Shown here piece by piece: positions 8,109 through 16,897 of a stretch of DNA of 64,000 nt. The translations under genes and the position numbers were made by a program. Each line of letters opens with the position of its first letter. Within the stretch, counting starts at the first letter, position 1. Below the pieces are notes generated by a model. It searched no databases and was not told where the DNA came from. It worked only from the letters and a program-made list of their open reading frames with translations. Source of the stretch: Asanoa ferruginea (GTDB lineage Bacteria > Actinomycetota > Actinomycetes > Mycobacteriales > Micromonosporaceae); contig NZ_QUMQ01000001.1 in assembly GCF_003387075.1 (NCBI RefSeq), positions 3,410,001 through 3,474,000 of the forward strand, written 5' to 3'.

Positions 8109-8822
8109 ATGATGGGTGTCATGGCCGCACCACAGACCGAGGCGAGACTCCTCGTGGTCGAAGACGACCCCAACATTCTTGAGCTGCTCTCAGCCAGCTT
8201 GAAGTTCGCGGGCTTCGACGTGAGCACCGCGACGAGCGGCAGCTCCGCGGTCAGCGCGGCCAAGGACCGCCGCCCCGACCTGGTCGTCCTCGACGTCATG
8301 CTGCCCGACCTCGACGGGTTCGAGGTGATAAGGCTGATGCGCGAAGGCGGGACCCGCACCCCCGTGGTGTTCCTGACCGCGCGCGACGCCACCGACGACA
8401 AGATCCGGGGCCTGACCCTCGGCGGCGACGACTACGTCACCAAGCCGTTCAGCCTCGAAGAGCTGACCGCCCGCATCCGGGCCGTGCTGCGCCGCACCAC
8501 GGCCGGCGACCAGAGCGCCTCCCGCCTCACGTTCGCCGACCTCGAGCTCGACGAGGAGACCCATGAGGTCTACCGCGCCGGCCAGCGGGTCCAGCTTTCC
8601 CCCACCGAGTTCAAGCTGCTGCGCTACCTGATGCTCAACGCCAATCGGGTCCTGTCCAAGGCGCAGATCCTCGACCACGTGTGGAACTACGATTTCCGCG
8701 GCGACGACAACATCGTGGAGAGCTACATCTCCTACCTGCGTCGCAAGATCGACAACGGACAGCCGCGGCTGATCCACACCCTGCGTGGCGTCGGATACGT
8801 TCTGCGCAAGCCAACGGCCTGA
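8109..8822 (+). CDS. Two-component response regulator, OmpR/PhoB family
   Basis: 237 aa. Receiver domain about 12-127 with acidic pocket VVEDD, phosphoacceptor Asp62 (LVVLDVMLPDLDGFE), Thr (VVFLTARD) and Lys (DYVTKPFS); winged-helix DNA-binding domain about 140-237 (QLSPTEFKLLRYLML, IVESYISYLRRKID, HTLRGVGYVLR). Closest in character to the TrcR/MprA-like regulators of actinobacteria. In-frame starts at 8109, 8112 and 8121 are all possible and none has a strong ribosome site; family alignment would favour starting near MAAPQ at 8121. First gene of an operon with the sensor kinase (12 nt later) and the HtrA protease. Confidence 0.95.
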   Translation: MMGVMAAPQTEARLLVVEDDPNILELLSASLKFAGFDVSTATSGSSAVSAAKDRRPDLVVLDVMLPDLDGFEVIRLMREGGTRTPVVFLTARDATDDKIRGLTLGGDDYVTKPFSLEELTARIRAVLRRTTAGDQSASRLTFADLELDEETHEVYRAGQRVQLSPTEFKLLRYLMLNANRVLSKAQILDHVWNYDFRGDDNIVESYISYLRRKIDNGQPRLIHTLRGVGYVLRKPTA

Positions 8823-8833
8823 CCGGGGTGCCG

Positions 8834-10483
8834 ATGTTGGCCCCCCTGCGTGGCACACCGCTGCGCGTCAAGCTCGTCGCCGCCGTGCTGGCGCTCGTGA
8901 CGGCCGCCCTGCTCGTCATCGGGGCGGCCAGCACCTTTTTCCTGCGCAACTATCTGCTCGACCAGGTCGACGGCAACCTGCGCAGCCTCAACAACAACGT
9001 GCAGGCGCTGCTCCGCGACAACATCCAGTTCGCCGTCGGCGACAACGCGTTCGCGGTCGCGTCGACCCCGGCGCAGCCCACGCTCAACGACCTGAGCAGC
9101 AAGCCGAGCCAGCTCTTCACGCCCGACGGGCCCGACCTGCCGCAGAACTACGCAGGCCTTCAGCAGGAGTTGCAGAAGCACCACACCGACCCCTACACGA
9201 TCAAGGCGATCGGCAGCCAGACCCGCTGGCGGGTGCTGATGGTGCAGCCGCAGGACAGCAACGCGATCGTCGCGGTCGGCTTCAACCTCTCCGACGTCGA
9301 CCACACCGTCAAACAGCTCCTCTGGATCGACGGCCTGGCCGGCGGCACGGTGCTGATCGTCCTCGCCACGCTCGGCGCCGGGATAGTCCGGAGCAACCTG
9401 AAACCGTTGCGCCAGATCGAGCGCACCACGGTGGCGATCGCGGCCGGTGACCTGAGCCAGCGCGTGCCCGACCCGGAGCCGGGTGTCGACGAGCCCAAGA
9501 CCGAGCTCGGCCGCCTCTCCCGGGCGCTCAACGCGATGCTCACCCAGATCGAGACCGCCTTCGCCGCGCGGGCCGAATCGGAGACCGCTGCCCGCGACGC
9601 GGCCTTCGCCGCGCAGGCGTCGGAGGCACGGGCGTTGCGATCCGAGGAACGCATGCGGCAGTTCGTCGCGGATGCCTCTCACGAGTTGCGTACGCCGTTG
9701 ACCACCATCCGTGGCTTCGCCGAGCTCTACCGGCAGGGCGCCGCCGGCCCGCCGGAAGACACCGCACGCTTGGTCCGTCGGATCGAGGACGAGGCGGCCA
9801 GGATGGGCCTCCTGGTGGAGGATCTCTTGCTGCTCGCCCGGCTGGATCGGGAGCGACCACTGTCGCTGTCCCCGGTCGAGCTGCGCGTGCTGGCCAGCGA
9901 GGCGGTGCAGGCGGCCGGCGCGATGGCCCCGCAGCGACACATCGCGATCGACGTGGCGCCGCGCGCCGGTGCGCTGGTGGTGCGGGCCGACGACGCCCGG
10001 CTCCGCCAGGTGCTCGGCAACCTGCTGACCAACGCGATCATCCACACCCCGCCCGACGCCGAGATCAGCGTCCGGCTCCGCTCCGACGGCGACTACGCGA
10101 TCGTCGAGGTGGTCGACACCGGCCAGGGCCTCTCGGCCGACCAGGCCGAACGCGTCTTCGAACGGTTCTACCGGGCCGACGCCGCCCGGCGCCGCGACCG
10201 GGAGGCCACCAGCACCGGCCTCGGGCTGGCGATCGTGGCCGCTCTGGTCCGCGCGCACGGCGGCAACGTCGAGGTCGACAGCGTGCCAGGACAGGGCTCG
10301 ACCTTCCGGGTACGCCTGCCGTTGGCCACCGGCGGTGGCGACGACGAACACGACGGTCCCGATAACCACGGTGGCCCCGACAGTCCCGCGGGCCACAACG
10401 GCAACGGCACGGATCCGGACCGGCACTCTCAGACAACGCTCAGCCCGGCCCCAGGCCCGTCGCAGAGCGGTGGGGAAAGGTAA
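8834..10483 (+). CDS. Sensor histidine kinase (HAMP, HisKA, HATPase)
   Basis: 549-aa membrane sensor. TM1 about 12-37, an extracellular sensing region about 38-160, TM2 about 163-185, HAMP about 186-240, HisKA with FVADASHELRTPLTT (phosphoacceptor His283), then HATPase with N-box NLLTNAIIHT, VVDTGQGLS and GLGLAIVAALVRAHGG. The last 55 residues are a polar Asp/His/Gly tail outside the catalytic core. Start ATG 8834 has GGGG five nt upstream; a GTG at 8828 is also in frame. Partner of the response regulator just before it. The HtrA gene five nt downstream suggests the signal is cell-envelope or misfolded-protein stress, as in MprAB-PepD. Confidence 0.94.
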   Translation: MLAPLRGTPLRVKLVAAVLALVTAALLVIGAASTFFLRNYLLDQVDGNLRSLNNNVQALLRDNIQFAVGDNAFAVASTPAQPTLNDLSSKPSQLFTPDGPDLPQNYAGLQQELQKHHTDPYTIKAIGSQTRWRVLMVQPQDSNAIVAVGFNLSDVDHTVKQLLWIDGLAGGTVLIVLATLGAGIVRSNLKPLRQIERTTVAIAAGDLSQRVPDPEPGVDEPKTELGRLSRALNAMLTQIETAFAARAESETAARDAAFAAQASEARALRSEERMRQFVADASHELRTPLTTIRGFAELYRQGAAGPPEDTARLVRRIEDEAARMGLLVEDLLLLARLDRERPLSLSPVELRVLASEAVQAAGAMAPQRHIAIDVAPRAGALVVRADDARLRQVLGNLLTNAIIHTPPDAEISVRLRSDGDYAIVEVVDTGQGLSADQAERVFERFYRADAARRRDREATSTGLGLAIVAALVRAHGGNVEVDSVPGQGSTFRVRLPLATGGGDDEHDGPDNHGGPDSPAGHNGNGTDPDRHSQTTLSPAPGPSQSGGER

Positions 10484-10488
10484 ATGTC

Positions 10489-12147
10489 ATGACCGAGCAC
10501 GAAAACCCCCGGCGATCCGACCCCGAGCGGGGTGCCGAGCCGGCCGCCGAATCCGACGCGCCGCAGGCGCCGCGGCCGGAAGGCACCGAGCAGCCGACCG
10601 CCTACCAGCCGGCCGCTGAGCAGCCGACGGCCTACCAACCGGCGGCGGACCAGCCGACGGCCTACCAGCCCGCGGCAGAGCAGCCGACGGCCTATCAGCC
10701 CGCGGTGGAGCAGCCGACCGCGCAGCAGCCCTCCGTCCCTCAGCCGGTCAGCGGCACGCCCGTCACCGGGCAGCCGCAGAGCCCGTGGCAGCCGCCGGCG
10801 TCGCACTACCCGCAGCCGGGCCCGGGCTACCCGCAGGCCGGTTCCGCGCCGGGCTACCCCAGCTACAGCTACCCGTCGGGCCAGCAGCCCGGCTACGGCC
10901 AGCCCGGTTACGGCGCGGCGCACGCGGCCGACGCGGGCCAGACCTACCCGGGCCAGCCGCACCCAGGTCAGGCACACCAGCCGCATGGCACGCCGATCCC
11001 GTGGACCGGCCCCGGCGGTCCGGGTGGGCCGCCGCCCGGCCAGCCCTGGCAGCAGTCGCCCGGCCCGCACCGCCCCAACCGGGTCGGTCGCTGGATCGCG
11101 GCGGCCGCCGTGGCCCTCGTGCTGCTGCTCGGCGCCGGTCTGGTCGGCGGCGTCATCGGCGCCGCGATCAACGGCAACGACAAGGACAACGCCGCCTCCC
11201 GCGCCGCCGCCGCACCGGTGATCAACCGGTCGTCGCTCGCCGAGATCGCGCAGAAGGTCGAGCCGAGCGTCGTCTCGATCACCACCAGCACCGGCGAGGG
11301 CTCCGGCGTCGTGCTCACCGCCGACGGCTACGTGTTGACCAACAACCACGTCGTGGCCAGCGCCAGCGGCGACACCGTCACCGTGGTCTTCGACAACGGC
11401 AAGCGGACCACCGCGAGCATCGTCGGCACCGACCCGAAGACCGACCTGGCCGTCGTCAAGGCCAGCGGCGTCTCCGGCCTGAGCCCGGTCAAGTTCGGCG
11501 ACAGCGCCGCGATGCAGGTCGGCGACACCGTGCTCGCCCTCGGCAGCCCGCTGGGCCTCCAGGGCTCGGTCACCGCCGGCATCATCAGCGCCAAGGACCG
11601 CACCATCCGCACCCAGTCGGAAGACCAGCAGCAGAGCCCCTTCCCGAGCGGCGACCAGCAGCAGACGGCCACCTCCCTGTCCGGCCTGCTCCAGACCGAC
11701 GCGCCGATCAACCCCGGCAACTCGGGCGGCGCGCTGGTCAACACCAACGGCGAGGTGATCGGCATCAACACCGCGATCGCCACCTCGGGCCAGGGCAACG
11801 GCAGCATCGGCGTCGGCTTCGCGATCCCGAGCGCCAAGGCCGAGCAGGTCTCCCAGGCGCTGCGCAACGGTGACAAGATCTCGCACCCGGCCCTCGGCGT
11901 CTCGGTCACCGAGAACGAGAACGGCGGCGGTGCCCTGGTCAGCGGCGTCACCGCCAACAGCCCGGCCGCCAAGGCCGGCCTACAGCAGGGCGACATCGTC
12001 AGCAACTTCGGTGGCCAGACGATCAACACTTCGGACGATCTGGTGTCGGCCGTCCAGTCGCACAAGGTCGGCGATCAGGTGCAGCTCACCTACAGCCGGA
12101 ACGGGTCGGAAAAGACCGCAACCGTGACGCTCGCTGAAGCGTCATAA
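10489..12147 (+). CDS. HtrA/DegP-like serine protease with PDZ domain
   Basis: 552 aa, type II membrane topology: a cytoplasmic arm of about 200 residues rich in Pro, Gln, Gly and Tyr, TM helix about 200-222, an extracytoplasmic trypsin-like domain with triad His287 (NNHVV), Asp319 (KTDLAVV) and Ser412 (GNSGG), and a C-terminal PDZ domain about 460-550. The arm carries five near-identical ten-residue repeats (EQPTAYQPAA type, DNA about 10588-10737) followed by PGYPQ/GYGQPGYG stretches. Co-transcribed with the two-component genes; the likely role is envelope protein quality control under their control. AAAGG lies ten nt upstream of ATG 10489. Confidence 0.94.
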   Translation: MTEHENPRRSDPERGAEPAAESDAPQAPRPEGTEQPTAYQPAAEQPTAYQPAADQPTAYQPAAEQPTAYQPAVEQPTAQQPSVPQPVSGTPVTGQPQSPWQPPASHYPQPGPGYPQAGSAPGYPSYSYPSGQQPGYGQPGYGAAHAADAGQTYPGQPHPGQAHQPHGTPIPWTGPGGPGGPPPGQPWQQSPGPHRPNRVGRWIAAAAVALVLLLGAGLVGGVIGAAINGNDKDNAASRAAAAPVINRSSLAEIAQKVEPSVVSITTSTGEGSGVVLTADGYVLTNNHVVASASGDTVTVVFDNGKRTTASIVGTDPKTDLAVVKASGVSGLSPVKFGDSAAMQVGDTVLALGSPLGLQGSVTAGIISAKDRTIRTQSEDQQQSPFPSGDQQQTATSLSGLLQTDAPINPGNSGGALVNTNGEVIGINTAIATSGQGNGSIGVGFAIPSAKAEQVSQALRNGDKISHPALGVSVTENENGGGALVSGVTANSPAAKAGLQQGDIVSNFGGQTINTSDDLVSAVQSHKVGDQVQLTYSRNGSEKTATVTLAEAS

Positions 12148-12406: not shown

Positions 12407-15400
12407 GTGACGGTCGTCGAGACCCGGGTGAGTGTGTGGGAGGCGCTGGCCGGGCGGGCGCCTGGGCAGCCGGTGGGCCCGCACGACCCCGGCATGTGGG
12501 CGGCCGTCGTCGAGCGGCTCAATCCGGCCCGGGCCAGGCCCGTGCTGCGCGCCGGCATCGAGCAGGCCGAGCTGATCTCCGTACGCGGAGTGCCCTATGT
12601 GATGCTCCGGTCCCCCGACGACCGCGGCGGCGCCTGCTACCTGCGGCTGACGCCGGAAGAGTGGCAGCTCGCGACCCTGATGGACGGCACGCGCACCGTC
12701 GCCCGGCTGGTCGCTGAGTTCGCCCGCATCGGCGGCCGGCTCGCGCCCGACCAGGTCACCCGGGTGGTCGCCGACCTGGCCGCCAACCGGATGCTCGCCG
12801 AGTTGCCGGTCGACGCGTTCCGCCCGCTGTCCAAGGTGCACCGCCGGCCGTGGCCGCTGCGGCTGGGCCGCGCGCTGCTGGCGTTCGCGCAGGGCCGGCG
12901 CACGGTGGTCGCCAACATCGACCCGCTGGTCGGCTTCCTCTACCGGGCCGGCGGGCGCCTCCTTTTCCACCCGGCGGTCGTCGCGTTGCTGGGCACCGTC
13001 GCGCTGGTCGGCCTGGTCGCATTCGGCTGGACGTGGTGGCACGGCGAAGAGTCGATCTTCCTGACCGGCGGCTCCTACGCGACCGGCGCGGCCGTCCTGC
13101 TCGGGCTCAACGTGCTCGCGCTGGCCTGCCACGAGTTCGGCCACGCGCTGGCCACCAAGCACGCCGGCCGGCGGGTTCCGGCGGCGGGCTTCCTCGTCTA
13201 CTTCGGCATCCCGTCGGTCTTCGTCGACACCACCGACGTCTGGATGGCCGGCCGCCGCGCGCGGATGACCACCACGGCCGCCGGTCCCGCCGCGGGGCTC
13301 GTGCTGGCCGGCACCGCCTCGCTGGTCGGCGTCCTGGTGCCGGAGGCGGCGCCGTGGATGTTCAAGCTGGCCTTCGCCTGGTATCTCAACGCGCTGTTCA
13401 ACCTCAACCCCTTCCTCGCGCTCGACGGCTACTACCTGCTAATGGACTGGCTGGAGATCCCCAACCTGCGTGCCCGGGGTCTCACCTTCGTGGTCAGCCG
13501 GTTGCGCCGCCGCCCGCCGCGCTGGTCGCAGCTCGACCGCGAGGGCCGGCTGGTCGCCCTCTACGGCACGGTCGCCGTGCTCTGGCTCGCCATCGCGGTC
13601 AACCTGGGCTGGCGGATCTGGACCGACCGGGTCGCCGGGCTGACGATCGGCCTGTGGCGGTCCGGCTGGCCGGCCCGGGTCCTGCTGTTCGTGGTCGTCT
13701 GCGGGCTGGCCGCACCGCTGGTCTACCTCGCGTTCGGCTGGGTCGCCGGTCAGGTCCGCGCGCTGCGCCGGCGGATCGAATCGCGCCGCCGCGACCTCGA
13801 CGCACCGCGCCGGCTCGACGCGCTGCGGGCCTCGGCCCTCGGCCGGCTGCCCGGCGCGGCGCTGGCCGACCTGGCGGCGGTCGCGACCTGGGTCCGCCCG
13901 CGCACCGGCCAGCAACTCGTCTTCGCCGGCGCCGCCCAGCGCGCGGTCTACGTCGTGGTCGACGGCGCGGTCGAGGCGCGCCGGCCCGACGACCCGTCCG
14001 GCCTGGTCCGGCAGCGGCTCGGCGCCGGCGGCGTGGTCGGCCTGGCCAGCGCGCTGAGTGGGGCACCGGCCGCGCTCGGTTGGCACACCGCCGGCACCAC
14101 CCTGCTGTCCCTCCCGTCTTCGGCGGTATCCCGGGCGATCGGCCCGATCCCCGGCCCGCCACCGGGCGAATGGGACGAGGCCGACCGGCTCTTCGGCGAG
14201 GCGCCCGCGCTGCACGCGCTGAGCGCCGAAGACCGGATGGGTCTGGTCTCCGCCGCCCGGCCGGCCCTGCTCGCACCGGGTGACCCGGTCACGCTCAACG
14301 GCGCCACCGACGCGGTGGTCATCGAGTCGGGCACCGTGACCCTGCCCGACGGCACCGAGTTGCGCCGCGGCACGCTGATCGGCCCGATCGGCGACGGCCC
14401 CGGCGGGACCGTGGCCACCGCCCGCACGCCCACCCGGCTGTGGTCGGTGCCGGCGCTGTCGGGCACCCCCCTGCTGCTCGGTGCTGATCCCAATGCTCTG
14501 GCGCGAGCCTCCGCGGCCGGTGCCGGCCCGCGGGTCGGTGTCCACCCGGTCACTGGCTACCCGCCGCTCGCCGCGCCGCCCGGGCCGCCGCCGGTGATCG
14601 ACGAGAACGTCGACGGCCGGTTCGAACGCCGGCTCTGGTGGCTGGTCTCGCTGCTCCTGCTGCTCGCGCTCCTGCTCACCGCCACCAACTTCATCCCCGG
14701 GCCGGCCTGGGCCGAGATGCCCGCCGACCGGGCACTGCTCGCGGCCACCCGGGGCACCGCCGACGTCGACGTCAACGGCCAGGCGGTGAAGCTGTCCTCC
14801 GGCGACAAGCTCTACGTGACCGAGGGCGACCGGGTGCACCTGCGCGACCGCTCGCGGGCGGAGCTGACCTTCCGCGGCGGCGCGGTCACCGTGCTCTGCG
14901 CCGGGAGCTCGATCGACGTCGGTCCGCTGTGGAGCGAGGGTGACCGGCGCACCGTGCCGCACGGCGAGGTGCGGCTCACCGACGGGCGGGTGCTGGTCGA
15001 CACCGCGAGCACGCGGAGCACGTTCCGGCCGCTGGCCCTGTCGGTCGACGCGAGCGGCGCGAAGCTGACGAATGACGGCGAAGCCTGGTACCAGGCCAGC
15101 GCCGGCGGCGCCAGCTCCGTCTCCAAGGGTCGGGTGCTGGCCGACGACCAGCTCCAGCCGGCCACCGACGCGGCGCTCGACTGTGGCGACGGCCGCGAGG
15201 TGCCGCGCCCGGCCGGGCCGACCGAGGAGCCGACGCCGAGCGACGAGCCGACCCCGTCGGAGCTGCCGTCACCGACCGCGACACCGACGCCGACGGCCAC
15301 GCCGCCGGTCGACGACAACGGCGGCGACAACGGCAACGGCGGCAACCCGCCGCCCGGGAACCCGCCGCCGGGCAACCCACCTCCTGGGAACCCGCCGCCG

Positions 15401-15832
15401 GCCACCCGCCCACCGGTGACCCGTCCGCCCACGACCCCACCCACGTCGCCGGCCGACACCAACGACCCGCCCGAGATCACCTGGCGCAACGATCCTGGCG
15501 GCACGATCGACCAGCAGATCGGTGGCGAGTCGTCGTGCGGCAGGAACGGCACGAGTGCCGGCGCGTCCGTCGTCGTCACCGACGACAACGATCCGGAGCA
15601 GGCGCTCAAGGTCACGGTCTCGTGGAGCGGGTTCGATTCCGGCAGCGACGCGATGTCGTGGGACGGCCCGTTCTTCGGAACGATCGGCCCGGTGCCCTAC
15701 ACCGGCAAGCCCAACGACGGTGGCACGCTGTCGATCAAGGTGACGGCGACCGACTCCGAAGGCGAGAGCAGCACGATCTCGGGCACCGACATCACCGTCG
15801 CGCCCTGCGACTTCCAGAATCCGCCTTCATAA
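12407..15832 (+). CDS. Multidomain M50 zinc metalloprotease: PqqD-like, site-2 protease, two cNMP-binding-like folds, FecR-like, secreted tail
   Basis: 1141 aa, a rare fusion. Residues about 55-135 resemble a PqqD-like winged helix (peptide-recognition element of RiPP pathways). The M50 core follows with HEFGH at 242-246 and third ligand region NLNPFLALDGYYLL (Asp340), within several TM helices (about 187-207, 225-243, 290-312, 385-403, 423-447). Residues about 485-585 and 600-700 look like two cyclic-nucleotide-binding jelly rolls. A TM helix about 743-762 leads to a FecR-like domain (about 770-900), a Pro/Thr/Gly linker with NPPPG repeats (about 940-1020) and an Ig-like outer domain with two cysteines. 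GTG 12407 has GGGGGAGG nine nt upstream. First gene of an operon with the Zn-ribbon and Ca-loop proteins; likely cleaves or matures an exported peptide or protein. Domain calls other than M50 are by eye. Confidence 0.82.
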   Translation: MTVVETRVSVWEALAGRAPGQPVGPHDPGMWAAVVERLNPARARPVLRAGIEQAELISVRGVPYVMLRSPDDRGGACYLRLTPEEWQLATLMDGTRTVARLVAEFARIGGRLAPDQVTRVVADLAANRMLAELPVDAFRPLSKVHRRPWPLRLGRALLAFAQGRRTVVANIDPLVGFLYRAGGRLLFHPAVVALLGTVALVGLVAFGWTWWHGEESIFLTGGSYATGAAVLLGLNVLALACHEFGHALATKHAGRRVPAAGFLVYFGIPSVFVDTTDVWMAGRRARMTTTAAGPAAGLVLAGTASLVGVLVPEAAPWMFKLAFAWYLNALFNLNPFLALDGYYLLMDWLEIPNLRARGLTFVVSRLRRRPPRWSQLDREGRLVALYGTVAVLWLAIAVNLGWRIWTDRVAGLTIGLWRSGWPARVLLFVVVCGLAAPLVYLAFGWVAGQVRALRRRIESRRRDLDAPRRLDALRASALGRLPGAALADLAAVATWVRPRTGQQLVFAGAAQRAVYVVVDGAVEARRPDDPSGLVRQRLGAGGVVGLASALSGAPAALGWHTAGTTLLSLPSSAVSRAIGPIPGPPPGEWDEADRLFGEAPALHALSAEDRMGLVSAARPALLAPGDPVTLNGATDAVVIESGTVTLPDGTELRRGTLIGPIGDGPGGTVATARTPTRLWSVPALSGTPLLLGADPNALARASAAGAGPRVGVHPVTGYPPLAAPPGPPPVIDENVDGRFERRLWWLVSLLLLLALLLTATNFIPGPAWAEMPADRALLAATRGTADVDVNGQAVKLSSGDKLYVTEGDRVHLRDRSRAELTFRGGAVTVLCAGSSIDVGPLWSEGDRRTVPHGEVRLTDGRVLVDTASTRSTFRPLALSVDASGAKLTNDGEAWYQASAGGASSVSKGRVLADDQLQPATDAALDCGDGREVPRPAGPTEEPTPSDEPTPSELPSPTATPTPTATPPVDDNGGDNGNGGNPPPGNPPPGNPPPGNPPPATRPPVTRPPTTPPTSPADTNDPPEITWRNDPGGTIDQQIGGESSCGRNGTSAGASVVVTDDNDPEQALKVTVSWSGFDSGSDAMSWDGPFFGTIGPVPYTGKPNDGGTLSIKVTATDSEGESSTISGTDITVAPCDFQNPPS

Positions 15833-15841
15833 GGAGATTTG

Positions 15842-16057
15842 GTGCTCTGCTGGTTTTGTCAGAAGTCGGCGCGAGGGTCGTGCCGGTTCTGTGGGCGCGG
15901 CGTGTGCGAGGACCACGCCCGATTCGGCCCGTTCCTGTTGGAGGTGCACCGCTCGGAGACGCGCGGCCGCGCCGAGGGTCTGGTCGTGGAAGACGCGGTG
16001 CAATGTGGCACCTGCCGACCCCGTCCACAGCCGGTGCCGATGCCGGAGCTCGACTGA
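15842..16057 (+). CDS. Small zinc-ribbon-like protein
   Basis: 71 aa with three cysteine groups: CWFC at 3-6, CRFCGRGVCEDH about 15-26, and CGTC about 57-60, enough for two zinc sites. No TM or signal peptide. GTG 15842 has AAGGAG (15831-15836) five nt upstream, overlapping the stop of the M50 gene, so translation is coupled; a TTG at 15839 is also in frame. It is sandwiched between the M50 fusion and the Ca-loop protein in the same operon, suggesting an adaptor or chaperone role. I do not recognise a named family. Confidence 0.75.
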   Translation: MLCWFCQKSARGSCRFCGRGVCEDHARFGPFLLEVHRSETRGRAEGLVVEDAVQCGTCRPRPQPVPMPELD

Positions 16058-16096
16058 CGGCGCTACGGTAGGAGCGCGTCGATGGGAGGCCGGGCG

Positions 16097-16897
16097 ATGA
16101 GTGACTTCGACGAGGTGCTGGAGCGACTGGTCATCGACCCTGGGTTCGCCAGTGCCCTCGCGTCCAACCCGGGGCTGGCCCTGGCCAGCTATTCCTTGAG
16201 CGACGACGAGATCTCCCTCCTGCACACCCAGGTCGGCGCCGCCCCGTCGACCGAGCACGGCGTGGAGACCCGGGCCAACCAGTCGAGCACGTTCGGCCTG
16301 CTCGGGTCCTTCGGCGGGCTGCTCGCCGACGGCATCGGCGGCGGCTCGTCGGGCATCGGGCACGCGGCGACCAGCGGCCTCGGCTCCGCAGGCACGAGCG
16401 GCTTCGGCCCGGCCGGTCATGACGCCGCCAGCTTCGGCCCCTACGCGCAGGCCGAGGGCACCCACGGCGGCATGGGCGGCCTGGCCGGCTTCGGCGACGA
16501 GATCGGCCAGGGTCTGTCCGACACGCCGACGGGCTCGGCGGGCATGGGCCACGCGCCGGTGCCCATCGACGGCCTCGGCTCGGCGCCCACCGATCACGTG
16601 GGCCTTGGCGCGGCGCCGCCTTCTGGGCCGCCGGAGGGCTACCACACCCGCGTCGACGTCGACGGTGACGGCGACTGGGACAAGCACGTGCTGCTCGGCC
16701 GCGACGACGGCGGTGTCGACATCCTGGTCGACAACAACCACGACGGCCGCGTCGACTTCGTCGGGCACGACACCGATGCCGACGGGCTGGTCAACTCGGC
16801 CGACTACGACAAGAACAACGACGGCTTCTTCGAGAAGACGATGTACGACGACAACGGCGACGGCTGGATGGACCGCACGGTTCCGCACCACCCCTAG
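16097..16897 (+). CDS. Ca2+-loop repeat protein with RiPP-leader-like N-terminus
   Basis: 266 aa in three parts. Residues 1-47 (DFDEVLERLVIDPGFASALA, then NPGLALASYSLSDDEISLL) resemble the conserved leader-like segment of Franean1_4349/Nif11-type precursors. Residues about 60-185 are Gly/Ser/Ala-rich low complexity. Residues about 188-262 carry five EF-hand or thrombospondin-3-like loops (DVDGDGDWD, DNNHDGRVD, DTDADGLVN, DKNNDGFFE, DDNGDGWMD). There is no Sec or Tat signal, so if exported it needs a dedicated route. ATG 16097 has GGGAGG seven nt upstream; ATG 16082 is a weaker alternative. Its position after a PqqD/M50 fusion makes it the probable substrate of that protein (inference). Confidence 0.75.
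   Translation: MSDFDEVLERLVIDPGFASALASNPGLALASYSLSDDEISLLHTQVGAAPSTEHGVETRANQSSTFGLLGSFGGLLADGIGGGSSGIGHAATSGLGSAGTSGFGPAGHDAASFGPYAQAEGTHGGMGGLAGFGDEIGQGLSDTPTGSAGMGHAPVPIDGLGSAPTDHVGLGAAPPSGPPEGYHTRVDVDGDGDWDKHVLLGRDDGGVDILVDNNHDGRVDFVGHDTDADGLVNSADYDKNNDGFFEKTMYDDNGDGWMDRTVPHHP

Follow-up and report, generated by a model that had tools for sequence, protein, structure and literature searches.

A possible leader-guided intramembrane protease encoded beside its putative protein substrate in a three-gene operon of Asanoa ferruginea

The window analysed here is a stretch of 64,000 nucleotides from the 9.07-Mb genome of a soil bacterium, the nearest named relatives being Asanoa species. Three packed, consecutive genes on the + strand encode a 1141-aa fusion protein, a 71-aa zinc-ribbon protein (ZnR) and a 266-aa protein that starts with a leader (Table 1). 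The tight packing claimed in the original prediction was confirmed, with the ribosome-binding site of ZnR overlapping the stop codon of the fusion gene. Genes for a response regulator, a histidine kinase and an HtrA protease lie 5' of the fusion gene (window 8109-12147), in an order that resembles mycobacterial MprAB-PepD, and a gene for a sugar-type ABC ATPase follows the leader protein gene. Scans of these four neighbours revealed no RiPP modification or export gene and no daptide modification gene.

Table 1. Positions of genes, domains and motifs in the window (aa, residues of the encoded protein)
Feature	Position	Strand	Basis
Fusion gene, 1141 aa: PqqD/RRE - M50 intramembrane protease - tandem CNB-like - TM - FecR/CSS-like - Pro-rich - beta domain	12407..15832	+	Partial or whole orthologue in 70/72 ZnR-chosen loci
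Predicted PqqD/RRE domain, aa 29-132, model order b-b-b-a-a-a	12491..12802	+	Profile matches and model
M50 membrane core, aa 189-445	12971..13741	+	NF041824 match, hydrophobic segments
HEFGH zinc/catalytic motif, aa 242-246	13130..13144	+	Sequence rows
NPFLALDG second catalytic motif, aa 334-341	13406..13429	+	Sequence rows
First CNB-like domain, aa 461-580	13787..14146	+	
Second CNB-like domain, aa 586-690	14162..14476	+	
Single TM helix, aa 739-763, before putative outer part	14621..14695	+	Hydrophobic segments, model
FecR/cell-surface-signalling-like domain, aa 776-930	14732..15196	+	
C-terminal beta domain, possibly Ig-like, aa 1023-1131, after Pro-rich stretch	15473..15799	+	Model
AAGGAG, ribosome-binding site of ZnR, overlapping stop of fusion	15831..15836	+	
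ZnR, 71-aa zinc-ribbon protein (CxxC, CxxC, CxxH, CxxC)	15842..16057	+	Length and column conservation
GGGAGG, ribosome-binding site of third gene	16084..16089	+	
Leader protein, proposed substrate, 266 aa	16097..16897	+	
NHLP/Os1348-clan leader, aa 1-47, helical	16097..16237	+	HMM and fold
Junction VETRANQSSTFGLLG, aa 56-70, proposed cut region	16262..16306	+	Conserved columns
Variable Gly-rich linker, aa 71-180, mostly predicted disordered	16307..16636	+	
Ca-loop beta domain, aa 181-266; loops at aa 187, 212, 225, 238, 251	16637..16894	+	

A structure model of the fusion (38-sequence input, mean pLDDT 79.0) contains, in order, a b-b-b-a-a-a domain (aa 29-132), a helical membrane core, two beta-rolls, a TM helix, a beta domain, a Pro-rich stretch and a final beta domain. 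By sequence the first of these belongs with PqqD/RRE domains: profile matches included PaaA, PqqD and, weakly, TbiB1 and PbtF, all of them ranked below spurious designed trefoils, while PF05402 matched four of eight rows of the domain, the window's own row giving no match. Profiles and model together point to a PqqD/RRE domain related to PqqD in sequence. The membrane core holds both an HExxH and a distal NPxxxxDG motif, as expected of an M50 (site-2) protease, and the daptide peptidase model NF041824 matched the fusion over aa 74-413 (5.6e-35); Pfam M50 reached only 0.047 in the window's fusion and matched 26 of 38 members (best 7.8e-6).

Fold searches with the model matched the tandem beta-rolls to the regulatory subunits of PKA/PKG, assigning them the CNB fold. 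Their sequence looks degenerate in Asanoa, where the CNB match was under the cut-off (1.5e-5); in two distant relatives, L191 and L184, these domains look canonical, with PF00027 scores of 3.4e-42 and 2.1e-42. The same type of search matched the FecR-like domain to the outer domain of PupR, and Pfam FecR matched none of the 38 members at E 0.1. Big_1 and Big_13 each matched the C-terminal region in one of the 38. The distribution of hydrophobic segments suggests which parts lie inside and which outside. Domain scans, including those of the 38 members, found no transporter domain. Profile, model and fold searches thus bear out the PqqD, M50, cNMP and FecR domains that the original prediction had placed on 12407-15832. 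In two Phytohabitans genomes (L082:6564-8444, L097:6570-9143) the fusion gene is interrupted, either genuinely or through a sequencing error.

The N-terminus of the third protein had been likened to a RiPP leader, and the homology of residues 1-47 is real: an Os1348-clan HMM matched the leader in 26 of 26 orthologues, and sequence and fold (6lk7) both identify it as Os1348, a member of the NHLP/Os1348 clan. Behind it lies a conserved junction, VExRxxxSSxFGL, of which V56, E57, R59 and G67 are invariant in all 26 orthologues. The protein is not an NHLP precursor in the sense of TIGR03793, which has a Gly-Gly leader end and a short core; here the junction is VETRANQSS and the protein 266 aa long. 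All five calcium loops that had been predicted were found. In the seven leaderless Ca-loop proteins inspected, the start lies close to a WSEFG motif, which some leader proteins have in their linker as well. Stand-alone Ca-loop proteins elsewhere in the family (L302-L308, L310, L045:12465-13001) start close to the DxDGDG domain, and inspection by eye found no signal peptide on them.

The three genes are conserved together, as the original prediction supposed. Among 40 loci picked from matches to the third protein, the fusion was present in 38, ZnR in 39 and all three genes in 37, and in most of the 40 the fusion is preceded, as in the window, by the response regulator, histidine kinase and HtrA genes; five of the 38 fusion loci have no two-component or HtrA gene upstream within the stretch fetched. 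ZnR was 71 aa long in all 39 loci that have it (the start nearest the window's being taken), 43 of its 71 columns did not vary across 12 picked rows, and its start lay at most 60 nt from the fusion stop in 62 of 63 loci. A search with ZnR gave 72 named loci, some on short contigs; 34 of them had a leader and Ca-loop neighbour, 3 a leader only, 16 Ca loops only and 19 neither. Across 200 family genomes, a strong leader match (at least 100 bits) was found in 59, every one of which also has ZnR (59/59, vs 80/200 overall); the Fisher value of 3e-33 is overstated, as the genomes are related. The 21 ZnR-only genomes comprise 20 from genus g29 and one that is 69% complete. Another 16 of the 200 gave only weaker leader matches, and ZnR was found in none of the 16.

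The state of the HExxH motif was compared with leader presence in 66 rows, namely the window and the 65 of 72 loci with a readable fusion (L089, L091, L104, L108, L127, L129 and L148 were left out). The motif was intact in all 35 rows with a leader protein (33/33 with leader and Ca loops, 2/2 with leader only), whereas it was intact in none of 14 rows with a leaderless Ca-loop protein. It was also intact in 14 of 17 rows with neither neighbour, 12 of them from Actinoplanes, where the protease must therefore have other business; the remaining two are L093, whose leader protein is on another contig, and L122, a 7.7-kb contig. In a tree made without the catalytic columns, and with L093 and L122 not scored for leader loss, the leaderless rows form a single clade of 29 (support 100/99). 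The leader was lost once and HExxH three times, each time inside this clade. The clade makes up 27% of tree length, and all three HExxH losses would fall there by chance with p about 0.02; the events are few, and the co-location of leader loss and HExxH losses is suggestive rather than strong.

Dead fusion, ZnR and leaderless Ca-loop protein are retained together in 14 loci, which argues that the fusion also has a non-proteolytic role, likely as a scaffold or receptor. Paractinoplanes, a lineage in which the protease is dead and its partner has no leader, constitutes a natural control. Leader distances and PqqD distances did not co-vary beyond species distance in 24 loci (partial r 0.135, permutation 0.14); the corresponding values for the leader and other parts in 24 loci were 0.165 and 0.05 (M50), 0.225 and 0.009 (cNMP) and 0.113 and 0.15 (Ca domain).

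In 396 genomes of the phylum, at the thresholds used, PqqD-M50 was found in 26, ZnR in 23 and both in 20. PqqD-M50 occurs without ZnR in G263, G277, G299, G381, G391 and G443, and ZnR without PqqD-M50 in G215, G290 and G307, the last a weak partial match. Twenty ZnR loci were fetched from 19 of the 22 other ZnR genomes. A PqqD-M50 gene adjoins ZnR in 16 of these, with ZnR first in L186; it lies 1.8 kb from ZnR in L181, L177 sits at the edge of a contig, and no PqqD-M50 was seen in L194 or L195. In the last two loci (from G290 and G215), the ZnR gene directly follows a gene for a PrsW-family intramembrane protease (1.4e-18 and 1.9e-22; L194:9033-10342, L195:8799-10213); neither genome yielded an M50 of the fusion type. 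On these cases, which are just two, ZnR looks like a partner of intramembrane proteases in general, not of M50 alone. A gene for a CRP-type regulator follows M50-ZnR in a distant actinobacterium (L184:7236-7952), and similar proteins follow ZnR in L189 and L191.

A strong leader match was absent from 21 of the 26 phylum genomes with a PqqD-M50 match, and among the 20 phylum ZnR loci only L176 has leader proteins, three of them, without Ca loops; L178 has a weak leader-like match and no junction. In two Frankiales MAGs (L111, L114), a leader protein is encoded upstream of the fusion. We also considered the strong matches to leader model A6 (at least 66 bits), which occur in 5 of 396 genomes, all within the 26 PqqD-M50 genomes. 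This count was rejected as support for linkage; it is circular because the same five genomes supplied the A6 rows, most of them found by scanning M50 loci. The A6 model added no further strong-match genome, and gave weaker matches in 38 others (E up to 0.01).

A second architecture was found in genus g17, which has leader matches and no ZnR; the leader model used in this leader-side search contained no row of this kind. Here the leader gene lies immediately before a zinc ribbon-FHA-PqqD-M50 gene in nine of ten loci with a large leader ORF, the tenth being a contig edge. The same gene pair occurs in G027 (L201) and in G381 (L244, found from the M50 side). In G277 and G299, which likewise came from the M50-side search, the leader gene comes immediately after the zinc ribbon-FHA-PqqD-M50 gene within contractile-injection loci, whose genes include gp25 and baseplate J in L245 (493-13613) and baseplate J in L246 (3619-11250). 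The G277 leader protein (L245) carries an M23 peptidase (1.2e-11) and a weak glucosaminidase-like match. FHA-type proteases next to leader genes have no FecR domain, and distant relatives have no FecR-like part; three that were inspected also have no HtrA neighbours. In L247 the M50 neighbour has a leader-like start and no junction.

To our knowledge, the recognition of a leader tag coupled to cutting by a protease is known only from small peptides. Among the papers listed in searches of the open-licence literature, none was recognised as describing the present combination of domains and genes, and the terms M50, metalloprotease, FHA and cyclic nucleotide are absent from the main text of the RRE-discovery paper (PMC12710340). 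The system is less foreign than the original prediction assumed: the daptide report describes MpaP as an RRE-dependent intramembrane peptidase that removes the leader, and counts PF02163, of the M50 family, among its models for RRE-peptidase fusions (PMC10036551). The Asanoa fusion differs from the daptide peptidase in scoring 121 bits against the curated cut-off of 300 for NF041824, in its added CNB and FecR-like parts, and in having a 266-aa protein as its candidate substrate instead of a short peptide. The Asanoa leader is similar to motif 1 (..DPEF..) of NHLP/Nif11/Os1348-clan RiPP precursors and to the LSDEE portion of their motif 2; it differs in having no Gly-Gly end or short core, a linker and a folded domain following instead (PMC2887384). 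TmcP of the TMcin system, likewise a protease of the site-2 clan, removes a RiPP leader within the membrane, but it is of the DUF3267 type, its precursor spans the membrane, and the term RRE is absent from the main text of that report (PMC13252029). The YydH/LiaK epipeptide metalloprotease (NF058609) has a related M50 core (2.1e-9), but the score was 37 bits against a cut-off of 225 and the match spans the M50 part only. Relative to daptides, the novelty would lie in substrates that are long proteins, in the junction, in the sensor domains and in ZnR.

We give about an even chance to the reading that these genes specify an intramembrane protease guided by a leader, together with the protein that it cuts. 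The PqqD/RRE domain, placed in the cytoplasm, would dock the NHLP-clan leader of the third protein, and the M50 core would then cut at or near the junction, releasing the Gly-rich/Ca-loop protein. The M50 core would be gated from inside by the tandem CNB-like domains and probably from outside by the FecR-like part, and ZnR would accompany the protease throughout this branch as a small partner. Such a protease-substrate pair accounts for the presence of a leader and a junction, for gene linkage in both architectures and for the decay of the catalytic motif along with the leader. It accounts neither for the retention of dead proteases beside ZnR and the Ca-loop protein nor for the targets of the intact Actinoplanes proteases. 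The original prediction that the first protein recognises and cleaves the third thus gains indirect support from the HExxH comparison and from the g17 gene pairs with a differently built PqqD-M50 protein, both docking and cleavage being inferred.

The 14 loci that keep a dead M50 with ZnR and a leaderless Ca-loop protein would be more readily understood if the third protein were a docking regulator, with the leader as a binding module, the Ca-loop domain as a Ca2+ sensor or structural element, and the complex controlling another activity of the fusion. Stand-alone Ca-loop homologues elsewhere in the family, on which no signal peptide was seen, are also consistent with this. Pure docking does not, however, predict that HExxH decay should be confined to the clade without a leader, and both the conserved junction and the other cargo borne by related leaders argue against it; we regard this alternative as rather unlikely. 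Less likely again, in our judgement, is that the fusion is a self-contained RseP/FecR-like device, with an outer FecR-like sensor and CNB switches on the inside. Its target would be a membrane regulator, which the neighbouring HtrA might cut first, and the leader protein would be either a bystander or one client among others. The FecR/PupR-like fold, the upstream two-component and HtrA genes and the intact Actinoplanes proteases all fit such regulated intramembrane proteolysis, but those upstream genes are missing from the five fusion loci noted above, and neither the distant relatives nor the FHA-type proteases beside leader genes have the FecR-like part.

It seems very improbable that PqqD-M50 and ZnR form a secretion route in which leader-tagged proteins are exported and the leader is cut during exit. 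An M23 peptidase with a weak glucosaminidase-like match as one leader cargo, and repeats and a Gly-zipper-like end in the leader proteins of another genus, would be in keeping with export. The M23 cargo, however, is encoded in a contractile-injection locus, where a signal peptide is not expected, and the fusion has no detected transporter domain. Nothing supports export of the leader protein by this system, and the earlier suggestion that the first protein perhaps moves the third finds no backing in an operon with no peptide exporter, where the next gene encodes a sugar-type ABC ATPase, or in the stand-alone Ca-loop homologues, which have no signal peptide by eye.

If the protease-substrate reading is extended beyond this operon, it is possible, and we suggest it only tentatively, that RiPP-type leader recognition has been turned to whole-protein maturation in actinobacteria. 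The leader and an R-x-[SNT]-[KRQ]-[SA]-[SAGT] junction would be read by PqqD-M50 proteases with interchangeable inputs (tandem CNB or FHA), the zinc-ribbon protein would be shared by intramembrane proteases of two unrelated folds (M50 and PrsW), and one branch would serve contractile injection systems and prepare cell-wall hydrolases. RRE-leader recognition would then not be confined to small natural products, but would mark long proteins for intramembrane cleavage; functions would follow for the 71-aa zinc protein, the PqqD-M50-CNB and FHA-PqqD-M50 proteins and the long NHLP-clan proteins, and the readable junction would make substrates predictable from sequence.

Leader-like proteins also occur with no M50 gene in the stretch fetched. 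Twelve of these (L198, L199, L202, L207, L208, L209, L212, L213, L214 and L299-L301) have no junction by eye; the junction is kept in L197, L200, L206, L210, L215, L294 and L298, with M50 elsewhere in the genome or outside the stretch. The g17 loci with short leader peptides have the junction in 3/3 and no M50 within the stretch. Short leader peptides (ORFs of 105-125 aa) with the same junction and no M50 nearby lie at L197:8627-8941, L206:9657-10031 and L298:8171-8545, and such peptides are possibly second substrates in trans. The large leader protein at L196:9171-11453 has Ca-loop repeats (DxDxDGxPxF), Gly/Pro repeats and a Gly-zipper-like hydrophobic C-terminus. The fourth leader gene of G576 (L297:3055-5079) adjoins an ORF matched by the PqqD model alone.
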